Source: Caldicellulosiruptor kronotskyensis 2002
GTDB taxonomy: Bacteria > Bacillota > Thermoanaerobacteria > Caldicellulosiruptorales > Caldicellulosiruptoraceae
Direction of reading: 5' to 3'
NCBI RefSeq assembly: GCF_000166775.1
Contig: NC_014720.1
Span: 1,916,501-1,980,500, forward strand
DNA: 64,000 bases
Positions within the stretch are counted from its first letter, which is position 1. Every line of letters begins with the position of its first letter. The notes beneath the pieces are model-generated. The model was not told where the DNA came from and ran no database searches. It worked only from the letters and a program-made list of their open reading frames with translations. Positions 1 to 7,200 of this stretch are shown here, piece by piece. The position numbers and the translations under genes were made by a program.

Positions 1-432
1 AAAATAACCTGCTAAACATATTAAGGCTGAAAAAACTGAAGAATAATGAACATAAAAACACTTTACTATATCATTAAAGTCCTGCTCTAATCTATTTAAA
101 ATCTCACCTTGTCCATATTTTTCTATTAATGAATATTTGTTATTCAAAAACAACATAAATAACTTTTTCTTTAGTTCAATAATTCTATTCTCTTTAAAAA
201 ATTCAATTAACAATGAAAAAAATAATTTGCCAGAAATAATAATAAGATAAATTAAAAGAAAGGTAACTACATTACATATAAAAACCTCCATATCTTTTTG
301 GATAGCTAATGAAAATAATTTAGCAAAGGTATTAGAAATATATATGTTTATGATACCCTCAATTAAATTTATAAAAACAATGAAAATAGTAGGTAATAAC
401 AATACTATTTTTACATAGTATTTAAAATTCAT
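1..432 (-). CDS. ABC exporter, N-terminal part (runs off the left edge)
   Basis: Reading down from an ATG at 432 there is an open frame of 144 codons with no stop before the window edge. The protein starts MNFKYYVKIV and has two strongly hydrophobic stretches (about residues 7-28 and 55-72). They are followed by a helical segment with YSLIEKYGQGEILNRLEQD, the pattern of the first cytoplasmic loop of type I ABC exporter membrane domains (usually E.G.i..R...D). The ATP-binding domain would lie outside the window. It starts 45 bp after the kinase-like gene at 477-1538 and is last in the visible peptide operon, so export of the mature peptide is the likely role. Whether it carries a C39 peptidase cannot be seen, but the N-terminus goes straight into membrane helices, which argues against one. 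Confidence 0.75.
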   Translation of the reverse strand, partial: MNFKYYVKIVLLLPTIFIVFINLIEGIINIYISNTFAKLFSLAIQKDMEVFICNVVTFLLIYLIIISGKLFFSLLIEFFKENRIIELKKKLFMLFLNNKYSLIEKYGQGEILNRLEQDFNDIVKCFYVHYSSVFSALICLAGYF

Positions 433-476
433 CCTTTTGCACCCTTCCCCAATAAATATAAGCTTATTCAATAATT

Positions 477-1538
477 CTACTCTGTATTGTTATATAAATT
501 ATCTAATAACCAATTACATGTTACTTTTGAATCAATCACCTTTTCTTCTAAATTCCAATCTGGCAAAAGTAATCTGTAATAGGTACATTTATTAGAAAGC
601 TTCTCAAATAACTCAAGTGGAATGTACAAATCAACAATTCGTTTGTTAGGATTAATTTTATTCTTCAAAAAAAAATATAACGCTTCTTTCCTATTTAATC
701 TTTTTATTTTCGGTTCACTTATTGGCACTTTTTCTACAAATATAACATAATCAATCTTTGAAAAAGCAATAAATTTATCTCCCAAAACCTCTCTTGCTTT
801 ATAATATGTTTGACAATTATCACAATATAATGGTTTATGATTATTCGTTAACAAAGACCAATAATTATACAATAACTTATTATTTCTATCAACCCTCAAT
901 CCTATGCTTTCATCAATACAATATCCAGTTATATCATTTGATATTATTAAGCAAATAAGATCATTTGATAACAATTTACCTCCCTCATATATTAATTGCA
1001 ACGCCAAGGTTGACTTCCCTACTTCACTTTCACCTACAAAAATTATACCTTTATCGCCTATTTTTACAGCAGAAGCGTGCAAAGGTAAACTAAAATGAGA
1101 ATACAGTGAACTAGCAATATAAAATTCAATTATTGATTCACAACAAGTAATTGAAGCTGGACTATTTTGATTTAAAAATACTTTTAAATATCGATTTTCA
1201 TAACTATATACTAAGCAAGAAAGAATTACATCTTTTTCTCTTTGCACTATTATTCTAAATTTATTGTTTTCGAAATGATATAATTCCGGTATATAAGTAA
1301 CATTCAAAGTTTTATTGTAATTCTTTAATTTTGATACGAATTCATTGAAGTTATTTTGTATTTTAAATTTTGTTCTTATATCTATTAATAAAGTTCTTTC
1401 ATTTTTTTGTAACACATTTTTATAATCCATAAATTTACAAAATCTCTCAATTAAATTTATGTCATCACACCTTATAATTAAATCCAAAACTGGTAATTTA
1501 AATCTTTTAATTGTAATTGATGATTTGCTATTTTTCAA
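477..1538 (-). CDS. HPr kinase-like (PEP carboxykinase-fold) protein of a RiPP cluster
   Basis: Protein of about 353 residues. Its C-terminal half carries an HprK-type P-loop GESEVGKSTLAL (about residues 169-180), preceded by LHASAV and followed by a SND motif. The N-terminal half (about 150 residues) matches nothing I recognise. Such kinases lacking normal HPr context occur in RiPP clusters: PadeK-type kinases phosphorylate the C-terminal Ser of some lasso peptides, and ScmC belongs to the SynChlorMet cassettes. Here it follows a radical SAM enzyme by 53 bp. A GTG at 1550 is in frame, but the Shine-Dalgarno AGAGGTGA overlaps it, so I prefer the TTG at 1538. The substrate is inferred to be the precursor at 3400-3510, which has a run of three serines. 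A scaffold role without kinase activity is also possible. Confidence 0.7.
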   Translation of the reverse strand: MKNSKSSITIKRFKLPVLDLIIRCDDINLIERFCKFMDYKNVLQKNERTLLIDIRTKFKIQNNFNEFVSKLKNYNKTLNVTYIPELYHFENNKFRIIVQREKDVILSCLVYSYENRYLKVFLNQNSPASITCCESIIEFYIASSLYSHFSLPLHASAVKIGDKGIIFVGESEVGKSTLALQLIYEGGKLLSNDLICLIISNDITGYCIDESIGLRVDRNNKLLYNYWSLLTNNHKPLYCDNCQTYYKAREVLGDKFIAFSKIDYVIFVEKVPISEPKIKRLNRKEALYFFLKNKINPNKRIVDLYIPLELFEKLSNKCTYYRLLLPDWNLEEKVIDSKVTCNWLLDNLYNNTE

Positions 1539-1591
1539 ATTACAGTTCACCTCTTTATAATAATTTAGTTTAAATTATTAAATTTATAGGA

Positions 1592-2659
1592 TTATCTAAA
1601 TAAAAACGGAGTAAGTTTATCTCTATAGATATTATTAAACAACGTTTGAATACATACAAGCGGAGATGGATATGTTATATCATTCCAATATTTATAGTTT
1701 TTTGCTATACATACAACACAATCATGCAATAATTCACATCTTAAACATTTTTGAAATGCATGATCTTTGACTTTTCTTATCTCCTCTATTAAAGTATTTC
1801 CATTAATTATTTCTTTGAACGATTTTTCCTTTAAATTATCTACGTTTTTGATATAGTGTTCTTTATCAATTACAAACTCCGGACAAGGATATACATATCC
1901 TTTATAATCTATAAAAAACGAACTTCTTCCCGCTTTGCATGTTATTCTTTTTTTAGAGGAATTTTCCTTGATTGTTCTAGAAAACTTTTCAAACATGCTT
2001 CTGAACGTTTTTACTTCATCAAAATTAAGCATATACATACTCCTCTTGAAATAATCTCCACTATAAGTTGGGGCAATTTCTACATCAGCAAACCATTCAA
2101 CATTTAATTTAGAAACTATTTCTTCTAACTTCTTTAAAGAAGGTAATCCTTGTTTTGTAACTACTGTTTTAATGACTAAATTAGCATTATATATCTTTAA
2201 AAGATATACAGCATTTAATGCTTTTTCCCATGCCCCCTCTTTTCTTACAAGAAAATCATGAATCGACGGTTCACCAGCATGAATACTAATTTCAATCTTC
2301 CCAAATAGTCTAGTTATGTCCTTTGCAACCACACTATCTTGAATTAATTCCCCATTTGTATACAATATCAACCCCATTCCTTTTTTTCTTGCATAATTAG
2401 CAATATCAAATATATCATTTCTCAATAACGGTTCCCCGCCTGTTATTGTAACAACAAAAGTTCCCATAGAAGATAATTCATCTAAAATATTAAAATACTC
2501 ATCTGTCTTTAATTCACCTTCTTCATGCTTCTCAATATAGCAAAATCTGCAATCCCAAGTACATTTTCTTGTTATCTCACAAACAATTTCAACTGGGTAA
2601 TTATCTTCTATTATCTTGCTTAAAATTCTATAAACATTCACTATTTTGTCAACCTCCAT
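1592..2659 (-). CDS. Radical SAM/SPASM peptide maturase
   Basis: 355-residue protein. CTWDCRFC (Cys33, Cys37, Cys40) is the CX3CX2C radical SAM cluster site, and TITGGEP near residue 75 is the SAM-binding GGEP motif. The C-terminal third has a SPASM-like set of cysteines (a CPE motif, then KCLRCELLHDCVVC and a last Cys near residue 340) that would hold auxiliary Fe-S clusters. SPASM enzymes make thioether, C-C or C-O crosslinks in peptides. The ATG overlaps the stop of the PqqD-like gene by one base (TAATG), so the two are translationally coupled. That fits the PqqD-like protein presenting the leader to this enzyme. The type of crosslink cannot be read from sequence; the core peptide offers Cys, Trp, Arg, Ser and Thr. 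Confidence 0.85.
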   Translation of the reverse strand: MEVDKIVNVYRILSKIIEDNYPVEIVCEITRKCTWDCRFCYIEKHEEGELKTDEYFNILDELSSMGTFVVTITGGEPLLRNDIFDIANYARKKGMGLILYTNGELIQDSVVAKDITRLFGKIEISIHAGEPSIHDFLVRKEGAWEKALNAVYLLKIYNANLVIKTVVTKQGLPSLKKLEEIVSKLNVEWFADVEIAPTYSGDYFKRSMYMLNFDEVKTFRSMFEKFSRTIKENSSKKRITCKAGRSSFFIDYKGYVYPCPEFVIDKEHYIKNVDNLKEKSFKEIINGNTLIEEIRKVKDHAFQKCLRCELLHDCVVCIAKNYKYWNDITYPSPLVCIQTLFNNIYRDKLTPFLFR

Positions 2660-2934
2660 TAATTGTTCTCAAGTACTAACTTTTTTTCAATTAACTCATT
2701 TATAAACTCGTTAACATCATTTAATGCTGTTTCAATTGAGCAATCAAAACTATTTGCTAAATTCGTTGCTATTTCTTCAGGATCAGTTATACCATTTACT
2801 AAACACTCCCATATAAAAGTAGCAGTTTCATTGAATATACAATAATTTTCATTTTTTAATGAGTATACAACAATTAAGTCGTCAATCTTTGCATAACCAA
2901 TATCTGGAGCAGGAACTATATGCTCTTTTTTCAT
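2659..2934 (-). CDS. PqqD-like RiPP recognition element
   Basis: 91-residue stand-alone PqqD-type protein: an N-terminal beta-rich part (IVVYSLKNENYCIFNETA), then a FIWECL...G.T..EI helical region and a C-terminal helix, as in PqqD and lasso B1 proteins. These bind the leader peptide and hand it to the processing enzymes. It lies between the B2-like peptidase gene (18 bp gap) and the radical SAM gene (1-bp overlap). The ATG is at 2934, preceded by AAGGAG. The leader motif Y..P of the predicted precursor is the kind of signal this family binds. Confidence 0.85.
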   Translation of the reverse strand: MKKEHIVPAPDIGYAKIDDLIVVYSLKNENYCIFNETATFIWECLVNGITDPEEIATNLANSFDCSIETALNDVNEFINELIEKKLVLENN

Positions 2935-2952
2935 TTAACAGCACTCCTTCTA

Positions 2953-3336
2953 CTATATTGTATAAATGTATGCTTTCTTATAAATTTGCTGAACATTTCC
3001 TCTTTCAAACATAGGTATGTCATCAATTTCTATCCAAGCATGCCCTAAAATTTTTTTATGATTTTCTGTTTTTTCGCACCGAAAACCAATTACTAAGGAT
3101 ACTTTTCCTTTGTAATTACTACATAAATAGAATAAAATCAATGACCGTTTTAAACATGTTAACTTCAATTTTTCAAATATAAAATTATTATCTATAATTT
3201 TACAACATTTTTCTGCTACTTGGATAATATCTGTTAATTCCTTATTTTTTTTAGATTTTCTCTTTATGTATTCTACTACCTTTTGCAAATTTGCAAACTT
3301 ATATAATACTAAAATATAAAATATTCCCATAATCAT
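2953..3336 (-). CDS. Transglutaminase-fold leader peptidase (lasso B2-like)
   Basis: Small protein of about 127 residues, a little shorter than typical B2 proteins (about 140-150). The conserved Cys is in LTCLKRSLILFYL and the conserved His in LGHAWIEID, followed by Asp, giving the Cys-His-Asp triad of the Transglut_core3 family. In lasso clusters this protein cuts off the leader. A hydrophobic segment occupies the first 15 residues. The reading frame can start with GTG at 3348, but the ribosome site GAAAGGTGA fits the ATG at 3336 better. It follows the precursor gene after a strong hairpin at 3357-3381, so it is probably made in smaller amounts than the precursor. Confidence 0.75.
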   Translation of the reverse strand: MIMGIFYILVLYKFANLQKVVEYIKRKSKKNKELTDIIQVAEKCCKIIDNNFIFEKLKLTCLKRSLILFYLCSNYKGKVSLVIGFRCEKTENHKKILGHAWIEIDDIPMFERGNVQQIYKKAYIYTI

Positions 3337-3356
3337 AATTAATTTCACCTTTCTTT

Positions 3357-3381
3357 AGAGCCGAGGGACTCCCCCGGCTCT
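3357..3381 (-). terminator. Hairpin between precursor and processing genes (attenuator)
   Basis: The arms GAGCCG and CGGCTC continue inward through three G-C pairs and one G-U pair to a 3-base loop. No U run follows, so it is more likely a partial terminator or an mRNA-end stabiliser than a full stop. This position, directly behind a precursor gene, is common in RiPP operons, where the precursor must outnumber its enzymes. Confidence 0.6.
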
Positions 3382-3399
3382 TTAGTTGTTTCAAGACAT

Positions 3400-3510
3400 T
3401 CATCTGCACCACGTTCTACAACGACTACTACTTCTGCCTCCACTTAATACTACTGTTTCAAGATTACCAATTTCTATTATTTCAGGCTTTACATATATTT
3501 TTTTACTCAT
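3400..3510 (-). CDS. RiPP precursor peptide (36 aa)
   Basis: Short gene with a consensus ribosome site (AGGAGGTGA, 5 bases before the ATG at 3510). The leader contains YVKPEIIEIGNLE, matching the Y..P.(I/L)...G pattern of lasso-type leaders bound by PqqD-like proteins. The C-terminal part, SGGRSSSRCRTWCR, is a plausible core: glycines, three serines, two cysteines, one tryptophan and four arginines. It is followed at once by a hairpin and then by the leader peptidase, PqqD-like, radical SAM, kinase-like and exporter genes on the same strand. The cleavage site is inferred to lie near LSGG. With no lasso cyclase visible, a crosslinked rather than lassoed product is likely. That this is a real gene rests on the ribosome site, the leader motif and the position. 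Confidence 0.75.
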   Translation of the reverse strand: MSKKIYVKPEIIEIGNLETVVLSGGRSSSRCRTWCR

Positions 3511-3540
3511 TCTTTCACCTCCTTCTTACTATATTAATTT

Positions 3541-3648
3541 TTAACCTTTTGCATAAACGCTCAAAATGAGCGTTATCAAGCTCTTTGCTAATTTCAAAAA
3601 ATCTAGCCCCTCTGTCACTATATCTTGTTTAGCACGTGTTGAAGACAT
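3541..3648 (-). CDS. Small ORF of unknown function upstream of the precursor
   Basis: 35-codon ORF (starts MSSTRAKQDI, ends SVYAKG) with a good ribosome site AGGTGG 5 bases before the ATG. It ends 30 bp before the precursor gene. The C-terminal half (FLKLAKSLITLILSVYAKG) is an amphipathic to hydrophobic helix. It has no leader motif and no Cys, so it does not look like a second precursor. Its last codons contain the inverted repeat at 3556-3574. It could be a leader ORF, a small membrane peptide or a chance frame. Its start overlaps the end of a transposase remnant in another frame. Confidence 0.35.
   Translation of the reverse strand: MSSTRAKQDIVTEGLDFLKLAKSLITLILSVYAKG
3556..3574. repeat. 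Inverted repeat AACGCTCA-AAA-TGAGCGTT
   Basis: Perfect 8-bp arms around a 3-base centre. The same arm sequence recurs in the longer palindrome at 3828-3854. Two copies flanking the start region of the peptide operon could be operators or remnants of a small mobile element. Confidence 0.6.
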
Positions 3649-3827: not shown

Positions 3828-3854
3828 ATAAAACGCTCATTATGAGCGTTTTAT
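3828..3854. repeat. 27-bp perfect palindrome
   Basis: The half site ATAAAACGCTCAT is repeated inverted around a single central T at 3841. It shares the AACGCTCA arm with 3556-3574. No U run follows on either strand, so it is not an ordinary terminator. Confidence 0.6.
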
Positions 3855-4195
3855 GTAATAGTTTAGATTACCAAGTGTCAAATCATTCTTTTGTAAGATA
3901 AAATTGAACCTCAATAATTATATATTAAGCATGTTTTAATATTTTCTTTTTTATATTCTCTGGTATACCATCCTATTTGCATATAAACTATCTCATTTAC
4001 GAGAGGCAATATGTAAATTGCTATATTTATTAATATTCTCCTTGGAATTTTCACCTCAATTTTACTTTATTAATTTTTATCCTGTCAAACTTCGTTTTTT
4101 TTTTTTTTTAGTTTAATTTCATGCAATTTTTAGCTATCAGCTCCCTCTTTCTTTTAATATCTCTAAATTTCTTAAATTCTCTCTTGTTTTTTCAC
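3855..4195. other. AT-rich gap without a convincing gene
   Basis: It contains a 47-codon minus-strand frame (3911-4054, starting GTG AAA ATT CCA) with no spaced ribosome site and no family I recognise, and a run of about 14 T residues near 4097-4110. I see no RNA gene here. Confidence 0.4.
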
Positions 4196-4230
4196 AAACA
4201 AAAAGCTGCCCCCTTCTCTGGAGGCAGCTA
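4196..4230 (-). terminator. Intrinsic terminator of the MMPL gene
   Basis: Ten-base-pair stem (AGCTGCC at its base) formed by 4204-4213 and 4220-4229, followed on the minus strand by TTTTTGTTTG. It sits 26 bp after the stop codon. Confidence 0.85.
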
Positions 4231-4255
4231 TCTAAATTGCTTTTTAAAAGCATTT

Positions 4256-7200
4256 TTAAACTATATCCCTTTTTATCCTCATCAAAGTATTGTACAAAAA
4301 TGGCAGCAGGAAAAATGCAAGCAGAACAAGGCCTATCACAACACAGATGGAAACCTGCATGAGTGTCAAAATCCCAGATGGCAGCATTGCCGCAAATGTG
4401 CCGGCTAAAATTATCACTGCTGATGTTACAACATGACCAATGTTTGCTGAAGTGAGCCTGAGTGCTTCGTTCATCTCTAAGTCTTTATATTCATAAAACC
4501 TTATCAGCAAGAATACACTGTAGTCTATTCCAAGAGCTAAGAACACAACAAAGGTGAAAAATGGCACTGCCCAGTTGAGTGCTTCGTACTTGAATATTCC
4601 TTTGAAAATCATCTCTGTTATAGAGAGTGCAAGGTAGTAGTCGACAAAAACTATCACCACCATTATTGCAGCATTAAAGATTGACCTTGAAATTAGGAAC
4701 ATGAGAATAAAGATGCTTATTATCATTATTAGTCTCAAAGTCTTAAAATCTTTAAAATAAATGCTCTTCAAATCATGGTTTGAAGATGATATCCCACCAA
4801 CTCCTACCGACACAAACTTTGTGTTTATAAACTCTAAAGAGTTATTTAAAACCTTTTCCACATTATCAACAATATCAATTGCCTTGTTTGTATACGGATT
4901 TGTGTCAAGAATCAAGATTATCTTTGTTATTGTTCTATCTTTGTTCATATATGAATCTAAAGCCTTTTTGAAGCTACTGCTTTTTATAGCTTCTGGTGGG
5001 ACGTAAAAGATGTTTGTTGTTTTGTATCCTTCAAAATAACTCTTCATACTCTGCATAGAATTTGCCATCTTGTTAAGTGCATCAGAAATCTGTAAAAGAG
5101 CTGATTTTAAGCTTGTAAACCCTGTCTGAAGTTCATCAACTTTTTTTAGAATCTGTTCTTTTTGTTTCTCAAATTCCTGAAGTTTTGAATACATAAGTTT
5201 TACACCTGAGATTATTTGTTTTTGACCTTTGTCAATTTGATAGTAGCCACTTAGAACCTTCCCTTGAGCATCAGCAAGCTGTTTTGAAGCTGAAGCTATG
5301 CTATTAATAGAATTTGAAATAAGCTTCAGAGCTTTGTCAGCTTCATTTATCTGGGCTGAAATCTTTTCATATTCAGAAGAAAACTCTTTTAACTTTGGAG
5401 CAAACTTATTTGCTTCAGTTTCAATTTTTGATAAAATCTCAGATGCCGTAATATAATTGATATCCCTTGAGATTTCCGGATACTTATTTGAAAGTGCTTT
5501 TAAATTGTTATTAGCAGTATTAATACCTGTCAATAAAAGTTCAATTTGATTTACATCAAATCCCTGTAATTCACTTTTTACCTTATTTATTGACCTTGTA
5601 TACTCAAAATAGAATTCTTTAAAGCCTTCAGACAGCTTGCTGCTTCCAATTGAAAGCTTATTAAGACCATCATATATCTTCTTAGAACCATTTAACCCCT
5701 GTTCAAATCCACTGTTTAGTTTTTCTAAAGAAATTTTCAATTCATATACACCATTTTCAAGCTGTGAAATGCCAGTTACAAGTTTTTGAACATCAAATTC
5801 TTTTGTTGACATATTTAAATTTTTGTTTATAGTCTCAATTGCATTGTTAACTTTCAAAAGACCATTTCTCAAACTATCAATACCTTTTATAACAGTATTT
5901 GCTTGGTTTGACAAACTAAATTGTTTTATAATCTGCCCTTCAGGTCTTGTGACTGAATACACATCTTTTATACCTTTTTGCTTACTCAATATCTCAGTTA
6001 TTTTTTCAATGTCAGATAATGCGTCAGAAGTTGCTAAACTCTTATTAGATTTCAAATAAATGGTAACAGGAAATGTCTTACCGCTACTGAAGTTTTTTGA
6101 AATTATGTTAAATCCCTTCACAGATTTGTATTTTTCAGAAAGTTCGTTTAGTGTGTTAAATGATAAATCGCCTCTCACTGATAAGAGAAAAGGTATCAAG
6201 ATTAAAATAACTGTTGTCAACACCACATAAGGATATTTAGTTGAAAGTCTTGCAGCAGCTTCCCAGAGTCTGCTATGGGTGTGCTGTATTTCTTTATTAA
6301 ATGGCCAGAGAAGATTTTTACCAAAAATTTTGAGTACAGCAGGAACCAGTGTCAAAAGCACAAGTAAAAGCACAAGCACACTTACTGCAATTGCTGACAT
6401 TGCCCTGAAAAAGTTAAAAGACGCTGCCGCAAAAGCCGCAAAACCTGTAAAAACCGCAAGACAGCTAAATACCACTGTTTTTCCTGCTGTTTTAAACGTT
6501 GTTATTATTGCATCATCAACATCTTTCCCATTTGCAAGCTCTTCTCTGAACCTTGAAATAATCAATAGATTATAATCCGTCCCAATTCCAAATAGGGATA
6601 CAACTATAAATGTTCTTGTAAAAGTATTGATTGGAAAATTAAACTTATCTGCTAAGTGCCCAACTATGCTAAGTGAGATTAAAAACGAAACACCAACTGT
6701 TAAAAGTGAAACAATTGGAGTGACAGGCGAGCGGAAAACAAGGACCAACACAATGATTATAAATACAATTGTGATGACATCGGTCTTTTTAACACCATCT
6801 TCTGAAGCCTTTACAAAGTCTTGGGTAATTAAATCTCCACCTGTCAGATACACTTCTAAACTCTTTGGTTTTCTAACAGAATCTATAAACTTATAAATAT
6901 CGTCTCTTATCTCAATAATTTCTCTCTTTGACTTGTCTGCCTGAATGCTTGCAAGGATAACCTTGTTGTTGCCTGATACGTAGTAGTTTTTTAGCTCAGG
7001 ATTCTTGAAATGAGTTGAAATATTTTCAATGTTGTATTTTTCTCTGTTACTGTTAAGTCCATAAATTATCTTTTTAATTGCCACAATGTCTTCATCTGAA
7101 AGACCATTTTTGTCATAAAATACAATTGCTACTGTTGAAAGCTTTTTATCCTTTGGTACTCCCTGATATTCTTTTTCTAACGCTGCTGCAACTTGAGATG

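Follow-up and report, generated by a model that had tools for sequence, protein, structure and literature searches.

Layout of the operon

At the left edge of a 64-kb stretch of the Caldicellulosiruptor kronotskyensis 2002 genome (hereafter the window; bases 1916501-1980500 of a single-contig 2.84-Mb genome), we examined a candidate operon for a ribosomally synthesized and post-translationally modified peptide (RiPP). It runs leftward on the minus strand from base 3510 through genes for a precursor, a B2 leader peptidase, a PqqD-like protein, a radical S-adenosylmethionine (SAM) enzyme with a SPASM domain, an HprK-like protein and an ATP-binding cassette (ABC) exporter, i.e., the six elements named in a first-pass annotation of this DNA, whose place, strand and order were all confirmed. 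The operon extends left of base 1 (L009 coordinates below) with the rest of the first exporter, a second ABC exporter and an NTP_transf_5 protein, after which it ends. The PqqD and radical SAM genes overlap by 1 base.

3400..3510, minus strand: precursor peptide, 36 amino acids, MSKKIYVKPEIIEIGNLETVVLSGGRSSSRCRTWCR; YxxPxI at Y6-I11; only such open reading frame in the window
3357..3381, minus strand: hairpin between the precursor and B2 genes; -21 kcal/mol for the fold of 57 nt; no T-run behind it
2953..3348, minus strand: B2 leader peptidase, transglutaminase-like; NF033537 39.8 bits (cut-off 33); better start ATG 3336
2659..2934, minus strand: PqqD-like stand-alone leader-binding protein (B1, or RiPP recognition element, RRE); PF05402 53.9 bits (cut-off 23.4)
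1592..2659, minus strand: radical SAM/SPASM enzyme, 355 amino acids; PF04055 67.9 bits (cut-off 29.5), SPASM 45.0 bits (cut-off 21.5)
477..1550, minus strand: HprK-like protein; HPr kinase C-domain 30.3 bits, just below the cut-off of 33.3
1..471, minus strand: N-terminal part of ABC exporter 1, 548 amino acids in full, without a peptidase domain; rest at L009:13471..11825
L009:11807..10203, outside the window, left of base 1: ABC exporter 2, 534 amino acids, same operon
L009:10173..8557, minus strand, outside the window: NTP_transf_5 protein, 538 amino acids, last gene of the operon

The precursor start is preceded by a strong ribosome-binding site (Shine-Dalgarno, SD, AAGGAGGTG). Among the 12 SD-preceded open reading frames of 20-80 amino acids on both strands of the 64 kb, the precursor alone carries an N-terminal YxxPx[LIV] motif, which makes it improbable that it was called by chance. 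From the spacing to the B2 substrates described in PMC10368454, cleavage is predicted at L22|S23 (Tyr at -17), which would release the basic core SGGRSSSRCRTWCR with an isoelectric point near 11.5 and a calculated average mass of 1598.8 Da before modification. The hairpin behind the precursor gene is possibly a processing or attenuation site that raises the precursor over the enzymes.

Lasso-type leader machinery without a lasso cyclase

Several traits of lasso peptide clusters are present: the B2 protein scored over its cut-off, the leader motif YVKPEI is correctly spaced, and the PqqD-like protein was recognized by Pfam. The leader and B1 fell under lasso-specific cut-offs (best NCBIfam match for the PqqD-like protein: lasso_PqqD_Strm, 37.6 bits, cut-off 70). 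A lasso cyclase gene directly beyond the left edge would have overturned the first-pass proposal of a radical SAM enzyme in the place of a missing cyclase; neither the operon nor the 13 kb to the left of base 1 contained an Asn-synthetase-like gene. The sole full-length Asn_synthase of the genome (251 bits) is encoded 570 kb from the cluster; there are also two weak partial matches, and just one B2 gene. The predicted core contains neither Asp nor Glu, so that the ring acceptor acid expected at core position 7-9 is missing and such a core could not close a lasso ring. By the two features tested, cyclase and ring acid, the product of this cluster is not a lasso peptide. The proposal was supported in part, namely for the lasso-type leader, B1 and B2, a kinase-like protein, and a radical SAM enzyme replacing the absent cyclase. 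Our preferred reading, to which we assign a probability of roughly 0.6, is that of a complete RiPP operon in which lasso-peptide leader machinery operates in the absence of a lasso cyclase and the radical SAM enzyme acts as modifier.

B2 retains Cys65 and His103 (numbering from GTG 3348), as in lasso peptidases. The radical SAM enzyme has C33-C37-C40 (CxxxCxxC) and seven SPASM cysteines (C241, C259, C305, C308, C314, C317, and C336) and lies next to both a precursor and a leader binder, as a radical SAM/SPASM RiPP maturase should; its AlphaFold2 model was poor (mean confidence, pLDDT, 58). The NTP_transf_5 protein keeps the SDID stretch. It also has a C-terminal extension of ~140 residues that is absent in relatives and lacks a Pfam match.

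The cluster shares the YxxP leader, discrete B1 and B2, HprK-like kinase, NTP_transf_5 protein and ABC exporter with paeninodin, pseudomycoidin and Bradymonas bsf, and differs from kinase-containing lasso clusters in lacking a cyclase and ring Asp/Glu, and in having a radical SAM/SPASM enzyme, an Asn-Asp kinase and two ABC exporters. A short precursor, a SPASM maturase and ABC export are likewise found in radical SAM RiPP and sactipeptide clusters (StsB, WgkB, SkfB), from which the operon is set apart by its lasso-type leader, separate PqqD, B2 protease, kinase-like protein and nucleotidyltransferase (NTase).

Related loci in other Bacillota

Sampled Bacillota contained two further kinds of B2 loci, with or without a cyclase. 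We counted nine kinase lasso clusters in which a cyclase is present (L043-L046, L060-L064) and six cyclase-free loci with PqqD, B2 and HprK-like genes (L034, L035, L058, and L059, plus L056 and L057 on short contigs). A B12-radical SAM gene lies beside five of the six cyclase-free loci, and an NTP_transf_5 gene was seen in all except L056 and L057. Beside them are one to three tiny open reading frames with YxxPxL...T(A/G) and a short tail; one example, MKQDYEKPQLIEYGDLNSLTAGNYYPSNIGV, passed the lasso leader model with 28 bits (cut-off 19). Some of these loci are near glycosyltransferases. Because four of the genomes (G217, G396, G514, and G515) have no full-length Asn-synthase genome-wide (best match, 35 bits over ~60 residues), lasso leader machinery does occur without a cyclase.

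The focal B2 was 21-26% identical to the B2 proteins of the cyclase-free loci versus 11-16% to those of Bacillota lasso clusters, and it grouped with the former at 89/79 in a 23-row tree. When 399 genomes of the phylum were searched with the focal kinase, every match outside its genus with E <= 1e-6 fell in a B2 locus. The cyclase-free loci thus share with the focal operon the same leader machinery, tiny YxxP precursors and the nearest B2 proteins, and differ in their B12-binding radical SAM enzyme, glycosyltransferase surroundings and Thr(-2) leaders, with a dedicated ABC exporter not seen. The first-pass annotation had held that the lack of a conserved precursor in related genomes would weaken its claim: the precursor is not conserved in congeners, and cyclase-free B2 loci with YxxP precursors exist elsewhere.

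The neighborhood search with the radical SAM protein suggested in that annotation failed to reveal sister clusters, as the best relatives in the 399 genomes (34% identity) sat in unrelated settings without B2. The gene was found in none of 11 congeners. A contig scan with one genome per species yielded relatives of 20-28% identity only, viral contigs held no close relatives, and plasmid records gave generic radical SAM matches and one weak kinase match; a PHROGs search gave nothing useful, and the 10 genomes of the class of G131 no further loci.

One locus, L044, was considered as a lasso cluster with an added radical SAM enzyme and was rejected: its full lasso set is separate from a module of PqqD, radical SAM, precursor and ScmC-like genes, and it is thus a neighbor and not a twin of the focal cluster. 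The module (L044:5843-8462) comprises PqqD, a radical SAM enzyme, a 57-residue YCKPEL precursor with Cys and an ScmC/HprK-like protein, followed by a signal-peptidase-like gene, and adjoins the complete kinase lasso cluster.

A repeat-flanked hotspot

The cluster has a GC content of 25.7%, versus 35% in the window, and sits between two direct repeats derived from an MMPL gene.

3926..5462: direct repeat, right copy, 1.5 kb; 3' end of the MMPL gene and downstream sequence
L009:6748-8279: direct repeat, left copy, 88.7% identical to the right copy

Each of the 12 genomes of the genus had between 1 and 12 matches to this repeat (L074-L092), and the strong matches lay in groups spanning up to ~35 kb. 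The cargo between the copies varied: besides a secreted Ntox44 toxin, it included ABC and major facilitator superfamily (MFS) transporters and, in four of the genomes, a further RiPP set. In this second set, a 24-residue precursor (MKNYSKPVVKRVVRGLVVMGGHKV, or MKNYSKPVVKRIVRGLVVLGGHKV in one genome) is accompanied by genes for an MFS transporter, a PqqD and a pair of SPASM radical SAM enzymes; its precursors read MKNYSKPVVKR(V/I)VRGLVV(M/L)GGHKV, and if the core were no longer than HKV, it would be reminiscent of pro-cofactor systems.

L074:8458-8532, minus strand: precursor of the second RiPP set
L077:11974-12048: precursor of the second RiPP set
L079:12396-12470, minus strand: precursor of the second RiPP set
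L086:4322-4396: precursor of the second RiPP set

In six congeners, the end of the focal cluster with the exporters and NTase survives at 98-99.8% DNA identity; in all six, the kinase is truncated or deleted and the precursor, B2, PqqD and radical SAM genes are absent. Both exporters are full length in five of these six, and nonsynonymous divergence is below synonymous divergence (dN < dS), though changes are few. This pattern fits exporters kept as immunity once production was lost, and a recent spread would look alike. A different allele of the 5' part of the kinase gene (85-87% DNA identity) occurs in three congeners (L083:8799-9482, L085:12756-13170, and L093:7784-8138). Where read (L083), the fragments beside it resemble the remains of a different radical SAM/PqqD pair, which suggests module exchange. 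Short palindromic repeats (ACGCTCAnnATGAGCGT) were also seen at window positions 3540-3600 and 3830-3855; the first has nine more similar copies in the genome, possibly the ends of a small mobile element.

Proposed pathway and alternative explanations

The sequence itself gives the gene content of one operon and the absence of a cyclase, and each pathway step below draws on knowledge of the protein families. PqqD would bind the YVKPEI leader and thereby offer the basic core to the radical SAM enzyme. The latter would crosslink the CRTWCR end oxidatively, with loss of 2 H, by way of a Cys thioether or of a Trp/Arg carbon link. If active, the HprK-like and NTP_transf_5 proteins could place a phosphate, and then a sugar or nucleotide, on Ser of the SGGRSSS stretch, akin to pseudomycoidin, where the kinase and NTase pair (PsmK/PsmN) act together to yield Ser phosphate and hexose (PMC9266682). 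B2 would cleave after Leu22, and the two ABC transporters would export the product and may confer immunity. Because the cluster shares its hotspot with toxins, transporters and further RiPP genes, an antibacterial product can be argued for, and a small Cys/Trp-crosslinked bacteriocin appears most likely.

Several observations weigh against the reading of a cyclase-free lasso-leader operon with a radical SAM modifier. The precursor scored 15.7 bits with the lasso_leader_L3 model (cut-off 19) and has Val, not Thr, at -2, where an Ile-to-Val change in BsfA nearly abolished cleavage (PMC10368454); Val/Ile(-2) leaders are known in phosphorylated lasso peptides (PMC10368454, PMC9266682). In the HprK-like protein, His158, Lys179, Ser180 and Asp197 are kept, and the first Asp of the catalytic pair is replaced by Asn196. 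This Asp is retained in 7/7 Bacillota lasso kinases and 6/6 cyclase-free kinases aligned, and in BsfK both Asp of the pair matter (PMC10368454). Because the pair is Asn-Asp, phosphorylation is uncertain: it is possible, and not expected, for this protein, and the earlier suggestion of a phosphorylated product is weakened. The radical SAM enzyme reached the cut-off of no characterized maturase model, so that its reaction is a guess. Support in the B2 tree was moderate and the focal branch long. Finally, a second complete cluster with this exact gene set was not found among the genomes searched, which leaves the focal operon a singleton.

With two Cys in CRTWC and Trp34 between Arg32 and Arg36, the core is compatible with both sactipeptide and cyclophane/streptide chemistry. 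If the product were sactipeptide-like, the radical SAM enzyme would link Cys31 and/or Cys35 to nearby alpha-carbons, and the lasso parts would serve leader recognition and removal only. The two Cys, the full SPASM set, the best PDB sequence match (the sactipeptide maturase SkfB, E 4e-10) and an StsB model score of 117 bits point this way; however, the StsB model has a cut-off of 625 bits, similar scores were obtained with AhbD, WgkB and other models, and the focal enzyme lacks the fused leader-binding domain that many sactipeptide maturases carry, and we regard this alternative as possible but on the unlikely side. A Trp/Arg carbon-carbon crosslink of the cyclophane or streptide/WgkB-like type would instead join Trp34 to Arg32 or Arg36, consistent with the single Trp between Args in a basic core and with WgkB as third-best model (110.5 bits). 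That score is far from the cut-off of 650 bits, however, and close relatives with known chemistry were not found; we regard such a link as unlikely.

The lasso-like gene list could alternatively stem from a lasso cluster that has decayed or is incomplete, its cyclase having been lost, with the radical SAM gene as a chance neighbor. While the kinase Asp-to-Asn change, the broken remnants in six congeners and the paeninodin-like gene content are in line with decay, the focal frames are all intact and tightly packed, the PqqD and radical SAM genes overlap, the core has no ring acid, and a full-length Asn-synthase gene is missing altogether from four genomes that carry comparable sets; we consider decay quite improbable. 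Little credence can likewise be given to a SynChlorMet-type or pro-cofactor (pyrroloquinoline quinone [PQQ]/mycofactocin-like) system in place of an antibiotic. PqqD-like, HprK-like (ScmC-like in L042/L044) and radical SAM proteins do recur together, as in the SynChlorMet cassette, and hotspot neighbors carry a 24-residue precursor ending in GGHKV with PqqD and two radical SAM enzymes. Yet the SynChlorMet (SCM), PQQ and mycofactocin models all scored far below cut-off (score/cut-off in bits: ScmD 23.5/100, ScmE 91.5/400, and ScmF 62/400; ScmC, no match), B2, NTP_transf_5 and ABC exporter genes are additional to that cassette, and the presence of dedicated exporters, like the basic core, speaks for a secreted product. 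What stands of the first-pass interpretation is the lasso-type parts without a cyclase and the radical SAM enzyme in its place; phosphorylation lost ground, and the model scores do not make the operon a SynChlorMet cassette.

Significance

A survey with RRE-Finder counted, and did not study, ~300 discrete lasso-type RREs adjoining radical SAM enzymes; among ~8,000 discrete RREs of the lasso type, about half lacked the peptidase plus cyclase (PMC7470986). YxxP is listed as the lasso motif (PMC12710340). In the open literature (subscription papers were outside the search), we came across no account of a B2 protein paired with a radical SAM enzyme where a cyclase is lacking. The operon combines known parts in an arrangement that we did not find described, and cyclase-free sets recur in other bacteria. 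Tentatively, the lasso leader-binding protein, B2, kinase and NTase may form a portable cyclase-free set, with the radical SAM enzymes (SPASM here, B12 in the sister loci) defining one or two undescribed RiPP classes and the focal product being small, basic, crosslinked and Ser-decorated.

Genome-mining tools recognize a lasso cluster by B1/B2 together with a cyclase, and count everything else as a false positive. Judging from these loci, some of what is so dismissed is real: there are whole genomes in which B2, B1, a kinase and YxxP precursors occur and a cyclase gene is entirely absent. The roles of B2 and of the HprK-like/NTase pair outside lasso peptides become testable and, provided that the enzymes of the operon are functional, a single pathway can couple lasso leader chemistry with that of radical SAM enzymes, which would be useful for peptide engineering.

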